NCBI RefSeq assembly: GCF_004519335.1
Contig: NZ_SOZD01000016.1
Location: 1-45,660 of the forward strand
Source of the DNA: Jiella endophytica
Lineage (GTDB): Bacteria > Pseudomonadota > Alphaproteobacteria > Rhizobiales > Rhizobiaceae
Direction: 5' to 3'
DNA length: 45,660 nucleotides
Made by a program: the position numbers and the translations under genes. Every line of letters starts with the position of its first letter. Position 1 is the first letter of the stretch. The notes under the pieces were generated by a model that was not told the origin of the DNA, made no database searches, and saw only the letters and a program-made list of their open reading frames with translations. This document shows, one piece after another, positions 19,628 through 44,478 of this stretch.

Positions 19628-20104
19628 TCACGATCCTGCCACGAATTTCTGGGCGACCTTTCTGCGCACCTCTTCCAGCGTCGCCTCGAGTCGGTTGACC
19701 TGCGACAGGTCGCGGGTGGCGGCGGGATCGTATCGGGTGCGCAGATATTCCCGGCCCGCCGACATCGCCCGCAGATGGCGCGCGGTTCGCTTGCGCAGGC
19801 AAAGGCCAAGGGTGGCGACCCGAGCTGCCCGCTCGGCAAGATCGTGCTGCAATCCGCGCACCACCGTGGCCGGCTGTCCCTCCAGCACCAGCAGGGCGTT
19901 GAGATAGAGCTCGACCGCATGGATCGCCGCCAGCCTGAACGGCTCCAGCGTCAGCGGCTCGCCCGGCCGTCCACACTGCCGCAGCGCAACGGCGGCATCG
20001 CGATAGCTTTCGGCGAGAGCGAAGATCTCGGCGGCCGAGGCCGTCTCGCCGGGATATACCCGTTCCGCGCTCTCCTGCACCAGGGCGATGCCGAGCTTGC
20101 TCAT
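19628..20104 (-). CDS. HEPN-like domain protein, orphan
   Basis: 158 aa, mostly helical. The HAVELYLNALL helix (62-72), GLQHDL (84-89) and the RTARHL...YLRTRYDP stretch (106-127) resemble HEPN proteins, which contain an Rx(4-6)H RNase motif and often an RY-P turn; R104/R106 with H110 is the candidate motif here. HEPN proteins are often toxins paired with an MNT nucleotidyltransferase, but no such partner lies on either side. Start sites are weak: ATG 20104 is chosen and GTG 20116 is possible. An AT-rich TTTAAATAGGG segment near 20250 may hold its promoter. Family assignment is by eye and tentative. Confidence 0.5.
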   Translation of the reverse strand: MSKLGIALVQESAERVYPGETASAAEIFALAESYRDAAVALRQCGRPGEPLTLEPFRLAAIHAVELYLNALLVLEGQPATVVRGLQHDLAERAARVATLGLCLRKRTARHLRAMSAGREYLRTRYDPAATRDLSQVNRLEATLEEVRRKVAQKFVAGS

Positions 20105-20307
20105 CGCGAGGTCCACGCGCCCGAGACATGATCGGCCCGCCGGTCGGTCGCGATCCGGCCATGAACAGCGCTACCATTCCCGGTCTGCGCAAGGGCACCT
20201 GCCATCCGCTCCCTCCTACTGCGTATGAGGGATGATTTCCCGCTACGACTTTAAATAGGGTTTACGGATCAGGATCGATTGCAGCGGGTGGCAGAGCCGG
20301 CAACGCA

Positions 20308-20811
20308 TCAGAACGGCTTTACGACCACCAGGATGACGATGCCGATGAGGAGCACCGCCGGGACCTCGTTGATGATCCGCCAGCTGCGGGCCGGACGCTC
20401 GTTGCGATCCTCGGCAAAGCGCCTCGTGGCGGCTGTCAGCATCCCGTGGATGCCGGAAAGGATCAGCACCAGGAAGATCTTCACATGCAGCCAGTGGTCG
20501 CCGCCGGTCAGCCATCCGCCCGAAACGGCGAGCCAGACGCCGGCGACCCAGGTGGCGATCATCGAGGGGTTGATGATCCCCTTCAAAAGCCGGCGTTCCA
20601 TCACCTTGAAGGTCTCCGACTGCACCGAGCCGGGCTCGGCGTCAGCGTGATAGACGAAGAGCCGCGGCAGATAGAGCATGCCGGCCATCCAGGCGATCAC
20701 TGCGAAGACATGCACCGCCTTCACCCAGAGATAGGCCGAATCCGGCAAAAGCAGGAACATCAGCGCGGCAACGAGCACGGTGATGGCAAGGGCGATCAGC
20801 GCGTTTCTCAT
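20308..20811 (-). CDS. hemJ: Protoporphyrinogen IX oxidase HemJ
   Basis: 167 aa with four transmembrane helices. His34 in the WVKAVHVFAVIAWMAGML helix and the LPRLFVYH segment are the conserved heme-binding region of the UPF0093/HemJ family, which oxidises protoporphyrinogen IX in heme synthesis. In many Hyphomicrobiales hemJ lies directly between hemE and rho. Here it is on the same strand as hemE but 930 bp away across a repeat-filled gap, and no rho follows. The ATG at 20811 lacks a strong Shine-Dalgarno sequence. Confidence 0.92.
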   Translation of the reverse strand: MRNALIALAITVLVAALMFLLLPDSAYLWVKAVHVFAVIAWMAGMLYLPRLFVYHADAEPGSVQSETFKVMERRLLKGIINPSMIATWVAGVWLAVSGGWLTGGDHWLHVKIFLVLILSGIHGMLTAATRRFAEDRNERPARSWRIINEVPAVLLIGIVILVVVKPF

Positions 20812-21741: not shown

Positions 21742-22764
21742 TTACCCCCTGATCCGCTTCAGCAGCGCCTCGACATGGGCGATCGGTGCGTCGGGGGTGA
21801 TGCCGTGGCCGAGATTGAAGATCAGCGGCCCGGAGCCGAGATTTTCGAGGATTCGGTCGATCCCTTCCTCCAGCGCCCGCCCGCCGGCGATCAGCCGCAG
21901 CGGATCGAGATTACCCTGCACCGGCCCTTCGGCCTGGAGTCCACGGGCAAAATCCATCGGCAGCTGCCAATCGAGTCCGACGGCATCGACGCCGGTCTTC
22001 TGGCGGTAGGTCGAAAGGAACGCTCCCGCTCCCTTGGCAAAGCCGATGATCCTGGCATCGGGTTTCGCAGCGCGGACCTTCTCGACCATCCGCCGCACGG
22101 GGCCGATCGCATAGGCCTCGAAGCTCGCCTCGTCGAGGACGCCGGACCAGGAATCGAAGATCTGCACGCAGTCCGCCCCGGCGGTCAGCTGGCGGATCAG
22201 ATAGTCGGCGCTCATCTCGGCGAGCAGGTAGAGCAGCGTTTCCATCTCCTCCGGATGGCGATAGCCGAACAGCCGCGCCGGCGCCTGGTCCGGCGTGCCG
22301 TGACCGGCGATCATGTAGGTCGCGACCGTCCAGGGGGCGCCGCAGAAGCCGATCAGCGTCGTTTCCGCGGGGAGTTCCTCGCGCAGCCTTGCGACCGTCG
22401 CGATGACGGGAGCGAGATGGGTCTCGGCCCGGCTCGGATCGAGCGAAGCGATCTCGTCCTCTCGGATCGGCGTCAGCTTCGGCCCCTCGCCTGCGACGAA
22501 ATGGAGGTCCCGATCGAGGGCGTCGGGGATCACCAGAATGTCGGAAAACAGGATCGCCGCGTCGAAGCCGAAGCGGCGGATCGGCTGGAGGGTCACCTCG
22601 GTGGCAAAGTCCGGATCGTAGCAGAGGTCGAGAAAGCCTCCGGCCTTGGCCCGCAATTCGCGATATTCCGGCAGGTAGCGGCCTGCCTGGCGCATCAGCC
22701 AGACGGGCGGCGGCGAGACCGTCTCGCCATTCAGCACCCGCAGAAGCTTGCGCTGTTCCGTCAT
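21742..22764 (-). CDS. hemE: Uroporphyrinogen decarboxylase
   Basis: 340 aa, standard length. Signature [16 protein letters not shown] (20-35) holds the conserved arginines that bind the substrate's carboxylates, and [14 protein letters not shown] is the second family signature. GHGITPDAP near the C-terminus also fits. It decarboxylates uroporphyrinogen III to coproporphyrinogen III. The ATG at 22764 has GGGAG six bases upstream; the one at 22785 has nothing comparable. In alphaproteobacteria hemE marks one side of the chromosome origin, and here it diverges from maf across a 535-bp gap. Confidence 0.97.
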
Positions 22765-23299
22765 GGCGTTCTCCCAATCTTCCAAGAATCTCTTTTAAGA
22801 GAAATTGCTGATTCTTAGAGTCGGTGAATAGCCGGGATTCACATCCGGCGCCAATTTGGGCAATCTGCGCGGGACTTGGAGGCGGCGGTCGAATCCGGTG
22901 TCGCGACCGTCGATGTGAAGTCTGGGGAGGCTCTCAAATCCGCGAGACATCCGAAAGGCTTGGCGGGCGCGTCGCGATTTCGGCGGCTGCGGACGAGGCG
23001 TTGGTTTTGCAAAGGCGCTTGACGGGGCTTTGCCACAGATTCGCTGTCGCCCGGCCACAAGCGGATGGAGGCAGCCGATTGTGGATATGTGACGGTTCGA
23101 TGAACAGGGCGCGTGCAGCGTGGCCCGGCTGTCGGCGCGTTCACCCAAGCGGCCCACAGGCCGGCGAGAATCCCGGGCGTATCCGCCCGAGCCACTTGCT
23201 TCGCGGCAGCGAATCGAATCCGTCACCTCTTGCCTTGCTGAGGGGACGGCTCCATCAAGCACCCAACCCGTGAAGATTTGATTAAAAAGGCCCTCAACC
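22765..23299. other. oriC: Candidate chromosomal replication origin (oriC)
   Basis: Gene-free 535-bp gap between divergent hemE and maf. Caulobacter and rhizobial origins lie beside hemE, with maf-aroE-coaE on the other side. Seen here: nine GANTC sites (22786, 22810, 22818, 22836, 22891, 23038, 23168, 23211, 23216), about two being expected at this GC content; DnaA-box-like 9-mers ATATCCACA (23080-23088, minus) and TTTGCCACA (23029-23037), each with one mismatch to TTWTNCACA; weaker GGATTCACA (22835-22843) and CTATTCACC (22823-22831, minus); AT-rich ends at 22786-22820 and 23273-23290; and a TCTCTT/AAGAGA inverted repeat at 22789-22802. No full CtrA site (TTAA-N7-TTAA) was seen. Against it, ppsR, dnaQ, rho and mnmE are absent from the flanks. 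Confidence 0.6.
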
Positions 23300-23899
23300 A
23301 TGCCCAAAGGCATCGTGCTCGCTTCCGGCAGCGTCCATCGCCGGGAACTCCTGAAGAATGCCGGCGTGGACTTCACCGTACGCCCCTGCGACCTCGACGA
23401 ACGGGCGATCGAGGCGCCGCTCCTTGGCAGCGGCGCCACGGCGGAGGACGTCGCCTCGGTCCTGGCGGAGGCCAAGGCGGTCGACGTGTCCAAGAGCCAT
23501 CCGGACGAGATCGTCATCGGCGCCGACCAGACCCTGGCGCTCGGCGACAGGGTATTCCACAAGCCGGCCAATATGGAGGAGGCGCGGCGCACGCTGCTCT
23601 CTCTGTCCGGCGAGACGCACACCTTGAACAGCGCCGTCGTCCTGGTGGAGAAGGGCGTCGTCACCTGGCGCCATGTGGCCGTGGCGCGGATCACCATGCG
23701 CGAGCTCGATCCGGCGTTCATCGGCCGCTATTTAGCATCGGTCGGCTCGCGGGCGCTGACCAGCGTCGGCGCCTATCAGATCGAGCGGGAGGGCGTGCAG
23801 CTGATGGAGGCGATCGACGGCGACTATTTCACCATCATCGGCCTGCCGATCCTGCCGCTGTTGAAGGAATTGAGGCAGAGGGGAGAGATCGATGGCTGA
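23300..23899 (+). CDS. maf: Maf/Ham1-type nucleoside triphosphate pyrophosphatase
   Basis: 199 aa. Family signature [12 protein letters not shown] (7-18), IGADQTL with the catalytic-type Asp near residue 75, KPAN, and the C-terminal [28 protein letters not shown] block. Maf proteins hydrolyse non-canonical or surplus nucleoside triphosphates to monophosphates and are linked to cell-division control. It is the first gene of maf-aroE-NTF2-coaE and overlaps aroE by 8 bp. In many relatives a ppsR gene lies between the origin and maf; here it is missing. Confidence 0.93.
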
Positions 23900-24869
23900 C
23901 GAAAACGGGGAATGGACGCCGAAGCCCTATGTCAGCGGTGCCGAGCGGCCCCGCGGTGAGGGCTCGATCTTCGATCCGAACCACCGGACAAAGGATGAGG
24001 AGGGCCCGAAGGCCTTCATCACCGGCTGGCCGGTCTGGCATTCCCGCTCGCCGGCAATCCACGGCGCGTGGCTGAAGCAATTCGCGATCCCCGGCTCCTA
24101 TGTCCGCATGGGTGTCCCGCCGGAGGAAATCGGCGAATTCTTCGAGACGCTCGGCGAATCGGGCTTCGTCGGCGGCAACGTCACCGTCCCCCACAAGGTC
24201 GCCGCCTTCGAGGCGGTCGAGCGGCGTGACGGCGACGCCGAGGCGATCGGCGCGGTGAACACGCTGTGGTTCGAGGACGGCGCGCTCGTCGGCGGCAACA
24301 CGGATGCCTATGGATTTGCCGCCAATCTCGACGAGCGGCTGGCCGGCTGGGCCGATGCCGGAACGACGGTGGTGCTCGGCGCCGGCGGCGCGGCGCGGGC
24401 GGTGGTCCACGCGCTTTTGTCGCGCGGGGTTGAGCGGGTCGAGATCGTCAACCGGACGATGGGACGGGCCGAGGCGCTGGCGGCGCGTTTCGACAGGCTG
24501 TTTCCCGGCCGCATCGCCGCCCATGGCGAGGAGGAGCGGGCAAAGCTTCTCGAACGGGCGGACCTTCTGGTCAACACGACGCCGGTCCCCGAGAAAGACC
24601 CCGACGACGAGACGCCCGACTGGTTTCCCGAGCCGCTGCCCGACCTTTCGGCGCTGCCCGACCACGCTCTCGTCACCGATATCGTCTATACGCCGCTGAT
24701 GACACCGACGCTTCTTGCCGCGAAAGAGCGCGGCCTTGCTTATGCCGACGGCCTCGGCATGCTGCTGCATCAGGCCGTGCCCGGCTTCGAGCGCTGGTTC
24801 AAGCGCCGGCCGACGGTCGACGAGACGCTGAGGGCGCGGCTCGTCGCCGACATCGAAAGCGGATTGTGA
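23892..24869 (+). CDS. aroE: Shikimate dehydrogenase
   Basis: 325 aa, about 40 residues longer than usual owing to a charged N-terminal extension (residues 1-38) before [14 protein letters not shown]. The catalytic lysine is Lys102 in [17 protein letters not shown] lies at 136-141, and the NADP-binding motif GAGGAARA at 163-170. It reduces 3-dehydroshikimate in aromatic amino-acid synthesis. The start overlaps the end of maf by 8 bp, and the stop overlaps the next gene by the coupling sequence GTGA. A start at an internal codon nearer residue 38 is possible, but I see no Shine-Dalgarno sequence supporting it. Confidence 0.95.
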
Positions 24870-25300
24870 CGATGAACGAGGCTTTCCAACAGGGCCGGCC
24901 GAGCGGCTTCCGGCTGGCGATCGAGCGGCTGTTCCAGAGCTATGTCGAAGGCTTCGACGATTTCGACGTCGACCGGGTGCTCGACTGCTTCGCCTATCCG
25001 GTAACGATCTGGCAGCTCGGCAAGGGCACGGTCTTTGCCGATGCCGGCGAGCTCGCCGAAAATGTCGAGGCGCTGTTCGACGTCTTCGAGAACGAGGAAA
25101 TCGCCCATTCGGAATTCCGCGTCATCGAGGCGAGCTCCTGCGGCAATGCTGCCTTCGTCGCGCTATCCTGGAAGCAGGAGCGCAAGGATGGCGAGGTCGC
25201 GATGGAGTTCGACTGCCGCTATGCGCTCAGGCGCAACGACCTTTCCGGCGAATGGCTGATCGCGCTGGCGATCAACGAGGAAGAGGCGCCGCTCTGGTGA
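24866..25300 (+). CDS. NTF2/SnoaL-like domain protein inserted between aroE and coaE
   Basis: 144 aa. A helix followed by an alternating beta pattern ([35 protein letters not shown], then several strands) matches the NTF2-like cone fold; no enzymatic residues are obvious. The GTG at 24866 forms a GTGA overlap with aroE, and its own stop forms a GTGA overlap with coaE, so it is translationally coupled on both sides. ATG 24872 is an alternative start. A gene at this place is not part of the conserved maf-aroE-coaE-dnaQ order I know, so it is likely a lineage-specific insertion that has become integrated in the operon. Confidence 0.7.
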
Positions 25301-42738: not shown

Positions 42739-44478
42739 ATGGACGCCCTCCCGGATCTCGAACGGCACCGCGCCAGGCTGACCGCCTCCCTCGCTATCGT
42801 CCTGATCGTCGCTGCGCCGATCATCGCAGCCCTCGACTGGGCAAGGGCCGGAGCCGGATGGCCGGCCCTCGTCGTCTCGCTCGGCCTCGGCGGGCTTGCC
42901 TATTTCCTCAGCCGCCAGGACGGCGCCGGCGCCAATGCGCGGATGGTCGTCGCGGTCGGCTTCGTCGCCGAAATCTCGCTGGTCGTCGCCGCGCTCGACG
43001 GCAGCAAGTACCAGGTCGACGCGCATATGGCCTATTTCGCTGGCCTTGCCCTCATCGGCGCGCTGTTCGACTGGCGGGCGATCGCCGGGGCGGCGCTGGC
43101 GACCGCCGTCCAGCACATCGTCCTCAACTTCATCATGCCCTCGGCGATCTATCCGGGCGGCACGGACATCGAGCGTCTCGCCATCCATGCGGTCATCCTC
43201 GTCGTCGAGGCCGGCGCGCTGATCTGGCTGGCGGTGAAGGTGACCGCGATGTTCACCGCGGTGTCGGAATCGAACTCTGCCGCCCAGCGCGGCATGGAGG
43301 AGGCCGAAAAGGCAGGCCGCACCGCCAGCGAGCTGCGCGAACGCCAGGATGCCGAGCAGAAGCGCCAGATCGCTCTCGACAACGCCAAGGCCGAGGATCT
43401 GCGCGCCTTCATCGGCCTCGTCGATGCGAGCTTCGACCAGCTCTCCTCGGGCGACCTGACGGTCCGCATGGCGGGCAAGGTCGCGCCGGAATTTCAGCCG
43501 ATCCAGGAGAAGTTCAACACCTCGGTGGAGGTCCTCGAGGAAGCCATCGGCAAGGTCTTCGGCACTGTCGGCACCATCCGCATGGGCCTCAACGAGATCA
43601 CCGTGGCGTCCAACGACCTCGCCCACCGCACCGAGCAGCAGGCGGCGAGCCTTGAGGAAACCGTCGCGGCCCTCGGCGAGGTGACCGGCGGCGTCAACCG
43701 GACGGCCGACAATGCCGGCCAGGCCCGCAAGACTGCCGATTCGGCGACGGTGAAGGCGAAGAAGGGCGGCGAGATCGTCGCCGAGGCGGTCACCGCGATG
43801 AGCCAGATCGAGGCCTCCTCGCAGCAGATCACCCAGATCATCGGCGTCATCGACGAGATCGCTTTCCAGACCAACCTCCTCGCCCTCAACGCAGGCGTCG
43901 AGGCGGCGCGGGCTGGCGAGGCCGGCAAGGGCTTTGCCGTCGTCGCCCAGGAAGTGCGTGCGCTGGCCCAGCGCTCGGCGGAAGCGGCGAAGGAGATCAA
44001 GTCGCTGATCAATGCATCGTCCGAGCAGGTGGAGCGCGGCGTCGAGCTGGTCACCGCTTCGGGCAAGTCGCTCGACGAGATCGTCGCCGAGGTCGCCGGC
44101 ATGGCGGGGATCGTTGCGAACATCGCCGAAGCGGCCCGCGAACAGGCGACGGGCCTGCGGGAAGTTTCCGGCGCTGCCGACCAGATGGACAAAGTGACGC
44201 AGCAGAACGCCGCGATGGTGGAAGAATCGACCGCTGCCGCACAGACGCTTTCCGCAGAGACCGACAACCTTGCCCACACGATCGCGCGGTTCAAGGTCAA
44301 GGATGGCGCCAGCGCCGGAGCCAGCCGAGCGGCCCCGCCGGCACAGCGTCCGGCTTCCGCGAAAGCCGCGCAGCCCAAGGCACCCGCCCCGAAGCCGGTG
44401 GCGCAGATGAAGGCCACCGGCACCGGCGGCGCGGCGAGGAAGCCGGCTGCCGCGGAGGACAGCTGGGAGGAGTTCTGA
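42739..44478 (+). CDS. Methyl-accepting chemotaxis protein, multi-pass membrane sensor
   Basis: 579 aa. The N-terminus has about six hydrophobic segments (roughly residues 15-170) with almost no periplasmic domain, then a helical linker. The signalling domain carries the hairpin tip with [22 protein letters not shown] followed by [24 protein letters not shown], where CheA and CheW bind. The C-terminus is an Ala/Pro-rich tether ending DSWEEF, which resembles the xWxxF pentapeptide that recruits CheR/CheB. A membrane-embedded sensor suggests detection of membrane or energy state, but the ligand is unknown. ATG 42739 follows AGGAAA; TTG 42736 is the alternative. Confidence 0.92.

Follow-up and report, generated by a model that had tools for sequence, protein, structure and literature searches.

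A hemE–maf gap carrying a conserved GANTC-containing element as candidate chromosomal replication origin in an alphaproteobacterium

The chromosomal origins of Caulobacter and Rickettsia lie between hemE and the COG1806 gene ppsR, and the Wolbachia origin has been assigned to the hemE side after rearrangement, according to the available part of PMC1914354. The locus described here resembles the Caulobacter and Rickettsia origins in its position upstream of hemE, its divergent gap, its AT-rich tract and its DnaA-type boxes, but its other neighbor is maf without ppsR, and it has no CtrA site and few consensus boxes. The Caulobacter origin also contains GANTC sites, several of them, and loss of CcrM is reported to have left initiation control unaltered there (PMC3973325, in part); the effect described for Agrobacterium concerns a second, RepABC-type origin (PMC11514494, in part). 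Origins of the Rhizobium/Sinorhizobium/Brucella type share the synteny of this locus and have the same element upstream of hemE. However, they keep ppsR, and their hemE–ppsR gaps of about 400 bp carry 1–8 GANTC sites (69 loci), compared with nine in 535 bp here.

The window, meaning the whole stretch of DNA that we analyzed, is an entire contig (C7) of 45,660 bases from a 5.25-Mb genome in 28 contigs with one dnaA gene. Within it, hemE (21742..22764, minus strand; PF01208, 364.6 bits; the only match in the genome) and maf (23300..23899, plus strand; PF02545) are divergently oriented, and their ATG codons at 22764 and 23300 bound a candidate oriC gap at 22765..23299, which stands out by GANTC conservation, constant length and a GC-skew minimum. 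These start positions bear out the sequence-only reading, which had described a gene-free divergent gap of 535 bp. Across the ten same-genus loci (the window counted), gap length varies only from 533 to 537 bp. ORFs of 118, 149, 308 and 409 amino acids lie in or overlap it, and we rejected a coding origin because the gaps of the genus differ from that of the window by single bases in length and share 53–68% identity with it. Among named hemE sequences, that of Aurantimonas marina is the most similar (85%), with Mangrovicella, Aurantimonas and Aureimonas next, in a ranking from which records very near this genome may have been left out; judged from these sequences, the host bacterium is related to Aurantimonas.

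Nine GANTC sites lie in the gap, with five inside 22786–22895. The sequence-only reading had counted the same sites and expected about two, a figure that 500 mononucleotide shuffles of the gap reproduced (mean 1.9, maximum 7, none reaching 9). The window as a whole is depleted in GANTC, with 73 sites observed vs 276 expected; the median among 422 window tiles of 535 bp (step 107) is one site, and no tile has nine. Gaps of the genus carry 9–13 sites each (ten loci, window counted), and in the alignment eight of the nine window sites each recur in eight or all nine of the genus relatives, a level of conservation found at 10.5% of background positions. The sites at 22786..22790 (kept in 9/9), 22836..22840 (8/9), 23038 (8/9) and 23168..23172 (8/9) are accompanied by two doublets. 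The first, GATTC-TTA-GAGTC at 22810..22822 on the plus strand, has its first site kept in 13 and its second (22818) in all 15 aligned relatives; the second doublet, GAATCGAATC at 23211..23220 on the maf side, has both sites (23211 and 23216) kept in 15/15. The site at 22891..22895 is unconserved (0/9).

We compared GANTC density in roughly 800 kb sampled from each of two relatives, G001 (same genus) and G030. The homologous gap is the densest 535-bp stretch of the G001 sample (40 stretches of 20 kb), with 10 sites compared with 7 in the next independent stretch. In the G030 sample, the densest cluster has 8 sites, against 7 in the next independent one, and begins at 3,001,390, immediately upstream of hemE. 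The scarcity of good DnaA boxes and the placement of rho, mnmG and parS-like sites on other contigs speak for an ordinary GANTC-rich divergent promoter region, with the origin elsewhere. Yet this density has no equal elsewhere in the window or in the sampled portions of both relatives, the gap contains a deeply conserved element, and the skew switches at or near it in the G001 and G030 contigs, so that we regard such a reading as exceedingly improbable.

Cumulative GC skew in the window reaches its minimum at 22,179. Skew was also determined from 40 samples each of the G001 contig (5,577,574 bases; 20-kb samples) and the G030 contig (3,705,815 bases). The interpolated minimum of G001 falls at about 2.155 Mb and the maximum at 5.335–5.355 Mb, and the gap at 2.169 Mb is thus 14–16 kb off the minimum, an offset that counts against an origin there. 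The first 20 kb of this contig (L113; G001:C1:1-20000) have a GC content of 0.473, compared with 0.648–0.668 in the other 19 stretches, and are a probable foreign island. In G030, the sampled minimum is at 3.000 Mb, hemE at 3.00 Mb and the gap at 3.0014 Mb, with maf, aroE and coaE at 3.48 Mb, which puts maf 480 kb from hemE. The skew minimum, the conserved element (L196) and the densest GANTC cluster are all found together upstream of hemE, and therefore the origin signal goes with hemE and the element rather than with maf. As in Wolbachia, rearrangement of the opposite flank leaves the origin beside hemE. The same G030 gap contains a parS-like palindrome, TGTTTCACGTGAAACG. In the contigs of two drafts in which hemE has moved (G061 and G062), the skew minimum lies 30–40 kb from the element, a weak signal. 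The window and both sampled relatives thus have the minimum expected of an origin, in the gap or close to it.

The conserved element, TGATTCTTAGAGTCGGTGAATAGCCGGGATTCAC, occupies 22809..22842 on the plus strand and contains the hemE-side GANTC doublet. In an alignment of 16 gaps from the genus and other Aurantimonadaceae, this 34-bp block is better conserved than most of its surroundings. We built a matrix on these 16 loci and used it to scan 75 held-out loci, none longer than 21 kb. The top match within the entire locus was upstream of hemE in 73 of them, at 0–130 bp in 69 and at 161–231 bp in four, with most elements 41–59 bp from the gene. Nine of 104 gaps lack the exact core TTCT..GA.TC.GT, and the 95 that have it account for 91 of the 100 distinct sequences. 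For most other families of the order, the matrix gave no match to the element. Four loci from several other families of the order (L177, L188, L189 and L190) have runs of TTG repeats upstream of hemE, roughly at the position of the GANTC doublet of the window. The element was not found described in the accessible literature on alphaproteobacterial oriC, hemE, GANTC and DnaA-trios, a body of text that leaves most subscription papers uncovered.

The two matrix misses, Pseudaminobacter soli (L015) and Mesorhizobium ephedrae (L068), are loci where hemE lies away from ppsR and maf. A pattern search of both genomes places the element between ppsR and hemJ–rho, and no copy was found upstream of either relocated hemE. 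This genome-wide pattern fitted the Brucella-type element only; it missed five of eight genomes (G000, G001, G030, G024 and G063) and was informative only for G061, G062 and G064. One contig of the last (G064:C1) has the element twice, at 44230 (L192) and 2461812 (L195), more likely because a circular overlap was left untrimmed than because there are two origins. Because the element stays between ppsR and hemJ–rho where hemE has left, we treat it as an origin element and not simply as a hemE promoter, a candidate that these two genomes weaken. The element parts from hemE or from maf in different genomes, and is therefore tied to the origin gap. Unlike the Wolbachia case, then, the reverse rearrangement is also seen, with hemE gone and the element still in place.

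We also considered that the element could be the promoter of a hemE–hemJ–rho operon, with its GANTC sites serving CcrM/GcrA-dependent cell-cycle transcription and the origin elsewhere in the gap or nearby. The short distance to hemE in most loci suits a promoter, and the element is still upstream of hemJ where hemE has left. Moreover, intergenic regions of Alphaproteobacteria are enriched in GANTC, and many promoters in Caulobacter are targets of CcrM, as stated in the available parts of PMC3973325 and PMC11514494. This explanation is nevertheless unlikely in our estimation: neither relocated hemE has a copy of the element, the –35-like CTTGATA on the hemE strand of Rhizobium is absent by eye from the Aurantimonadaceae element, and the element and skew minimum occur together in G030, though hemE is there as well.

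The half of the element at 22823..22839 (plus strand), GGTGAATAGCCGGGATT, resembles a DnaA box and is a predicted DnaA-binding site, with four mismatches to a class consensus, TGTGGATAACGGGGATT. Counted by hand, the window version GGTGAATAG has three mismatches to TGTGGATAA, and GGTGGATAG, present at this place in 6/10 genus loci, has two; seven of the ten genus loci have one mismatch fewer than the window or a different first base. Two further box-like 9-mers lie toward maf. The sequence-only reading had given each a single mismatch. This is correct for ATATCCACA (23080..23088, minus strand) against the strict consensus TTATCCACA, and the position holds a perfect TTATCCACA in five of nine genus relatives and TTTTCCACA in a sixth. 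The weaker TTTGCCACA (23029..23037, plus strand), which directly precedes the GANTC site at 23038, departs from the strict consensus at two positions and comes within one mismatch only of the relaxed TTWTNCACA. At up to two mismatches, the strict consensus occurs twice in the gap, and 97 of 500 shuffles reach two, so that the count alone is within chance; the relaxed consensus at up to one mismatch occurs three times, a number reached by 3/500 shuffles. No cluster of consensus boxes was found in the gap, which has one 9-mer within one mismatch of TTATCCACA and two within two mismatches. The 9-mer at 23080 is the only one within one mismatch in the whole window, which counts against an origin.

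The lowest-GC 40-mer of the gap (GC 0.30) lies at 22776..22815, in support of the AT-rich ends noted earlier, and is a candidate DNA unwinding element. Among the 95 gaps that carry the element core, 85 have their lowest-GC 40-mer on the hemE side, with a start at or before the core and an end at most 30 bp before it. The locus therefore shows several features of hemE-linked origins, namely a gap directly upstream of hemE, an AT-rich region and a GC-skew minimum (in the window and two sampled relatives), and has maf in place of ppsR (COG1806) on the other side. We treat it as a homologous origin that has lost its ppsR flank, not as a textbook case, because its position relative to hemE and to the element is kept.

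For a class-wide comparison, 114 genomes were drawn, 93 of them with hemE, and we examined the best-scoring 29 loci of the 92 other genomes, which is not a random sample. The sequence upstream of hemE in this sample often contains an AT-rich tract, then TAG/TTG-like words and then a TGTGGATAACGGGGATT-like sequence. With up to four mismatches, the 17-mer TGTGGATAACGGGGATT occurs in 15/29 upstream regions, compared with 3/29 on the reverse strand and 0.3% of shuffles, and the other 14 fail at this threshold; with up to five mismatches the figures are 22/29, 4/29 and 3.2%. The consensus was picked by eye from these same 29 regions, and the reverse strand and shuffles serve as its controls.

A basal unwinding system (BUS) has an AT-rich tract, a repeat-like tract and a DnaA-type box in this order on one strand. 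The present locus, with the same order, resembles the BUS of Bacillus and others in these components and their shared strand (PMC8287927, in part), but differs in its trios. The published DnaA-trio rule asks for at least three consecutive NAN trios within 16 bp of a box, and the window has a run of one; the box beside it has three mismatches to TTATCCACA, where a BUS box has no more than two. The rule is satisfied by 2/19 Aurantimonadaceae-type tracts vs 43% of shuffles, by 1/67 other Rhizobiaceae-type tracts vs 50%, and by 4/22 class tracts vs 32%, with no excess over chance. The published rule led us to reject a strict DnaA-trio reading of the element. In their final 30 nt, the class tracts contain 6.3 TAG/TTG-like words on average; the figure is 2.6 for Rhizobiaceae-type tracts and 3.3 for Aurantimonadaceae-type ones. 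By analogy, the element may work like a BUS, and we claim no membership in that group for it.

The genome encodes a CcrM-type RAMA domain, for which only Caulobacter gives a match among 14 control genomes, and with its conserved GANTC sites the gap has the properties of a CcrM/GANTC-marked locus. All 54 distinct elements above the score cut have GANTC at the second position of the doublet, and 29 of them have it at the first. The cut of 8 bits removed 4/75 loci and favors the 54/54 figure; loci L064 and L198 have an element without the second-position site. The T-rich half of the element contains GANTC in most cases, which suggests, as a hypothesis, methylation-sensitive opening; the unaltered initiation control of Caulobacter after CcrM loss speaks against it. 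In Rhizobiaceae and Aurantimonadaceae, the opening tract beside the DnaA box could have become a tract with a near-constant CcrM site, whose full, hemi- or absent methylation would alter opening by DnaA. This proposal, which contrasts the tract (GATTC-TTA-GAGTC in most Aurantimonadaceae) with the TAG/TTG-type words of many other Alphaproteobacteria, is a tentative one that we consider unlikely.

The flanks of the gap are rearranged much as the sequence-only reading had described. No PF03618 match to ppsR was found in the genome (completeness 97%), dnaQ has left the neighborhood and is on contig C5, and ATP synthase subunit genes lie beyond hemJ (20308..20811, minus strand; TIGR00701 above cut-off) instead of rho–mnmE. 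A second hemE beside rho or ppsR would have pointed elsewhere; the genome has a single hemE, and rho is on C1. The mnmG (gidA) gene is on C28, close to two parS-like sites that are outside the contig of the window and count against an origin here; the parS pattern gave these two sites, and one when reversed as a control. The gene said to have entered the operon is indeed present between aroE and coaE (24866..25300, plus strand) and has tblastn matches in 9/9 genus relatives and in loci L005 and L010, with its NTF2-like label resting on a below-cut-off match (SnoaL_2, E 0.0024). Adjoining hemJ is a small gene at 19628–20116 (minus strand), which is there as described but matches HEPN only weakly (Pfam E 0.083, 13.5 bits vs a cut-off of 22). 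It has no tblastn match among the fetched loci of genus relatives and is possibly a recent arrival.

The unusual flanks do exist, yet they vary within the genus and are less striking than the sequence-only reading had implied. ATP synthase is the neighbor in four of nine genus relatives (G003, G004, G007 and G009), and in G005 rho is still about 6 kb away from hemE. In eight other Aurantimonadaceae loci (L003–L010, named or MAG), no ppsR match was found beside the origin, dnaQ is beside coaE in all eight, and rho–mnmE–mnmG follow hemJ in five (Aurantimonas marina, Mangrovicella, Aurantimonas sp. Leaf443 and two of four Aureimonas). Pararhizobium mangrovi (L012/L101) also has no ppsR match beside its origin, possibly through independent loss, and a hemE–maf gap of 549 bp. 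We rejected the rearrangement as a special feature of this locus because flanks are mixed within the genus; the changes are ordinary rearrangement around an origin.

CtrA control was also rejected, as the window gap has no exact TTAA-N7-TTAA site; the available text of PMC4433202 describes the S. meliloti origin as likewise without CtrA motifs. The Caulobacter origin gives rise to the small RNA CcnA (PMC8959179, in part), and the gap could encode a similar RNA. However, the window has no Rfam match at gathering scores, and we consider this highly improbable.

Together, these results support the proposal that the hemE–maf gap is the chromosomal oriC, and no check that we ran contradicts it; the gap is almost certainly the start site of chromosome copying. 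The joint reading adds that DnaA acts on the box half of the element, that opening occurs on the hemE side and that CcrM methylates the GANTC sites, and we give it a probability of roughly 0.88. Its observed basis is position, skew, the conserved element, GANTC conservation and what is seen in genomes with a displaced hemE or maf; its predicted components are binding by DnaA, the site of opening and the methylation effect. DnaA would bind the box half at 22823–22839 and the weaker boxes at 23029 and 23080. By analogy with other DnaA-dependent origins, the strands would first separate on the hemE side, across the T-rich half and the AT-rich tract (22776–22822). The GANTC sites would be substrates for CcrM; two of these sites belong to the T-rich half and probably sit within the stretch that opens first.

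The assignment places the origin for a poorly studied lineage and identifies a short element that stays put through rearrangements on either side. In practice, the element can serve to locate origins in draft Hyphomicrobiales genomes, and it offers a precise site at which to examine a possible effect of CcrM methylation on origin opening outside Caulobacter. If the tentative proposal of a CcrM-site opening tract is true, CcrM would gain a direct hold on initiation, unlike in Caulobacter.
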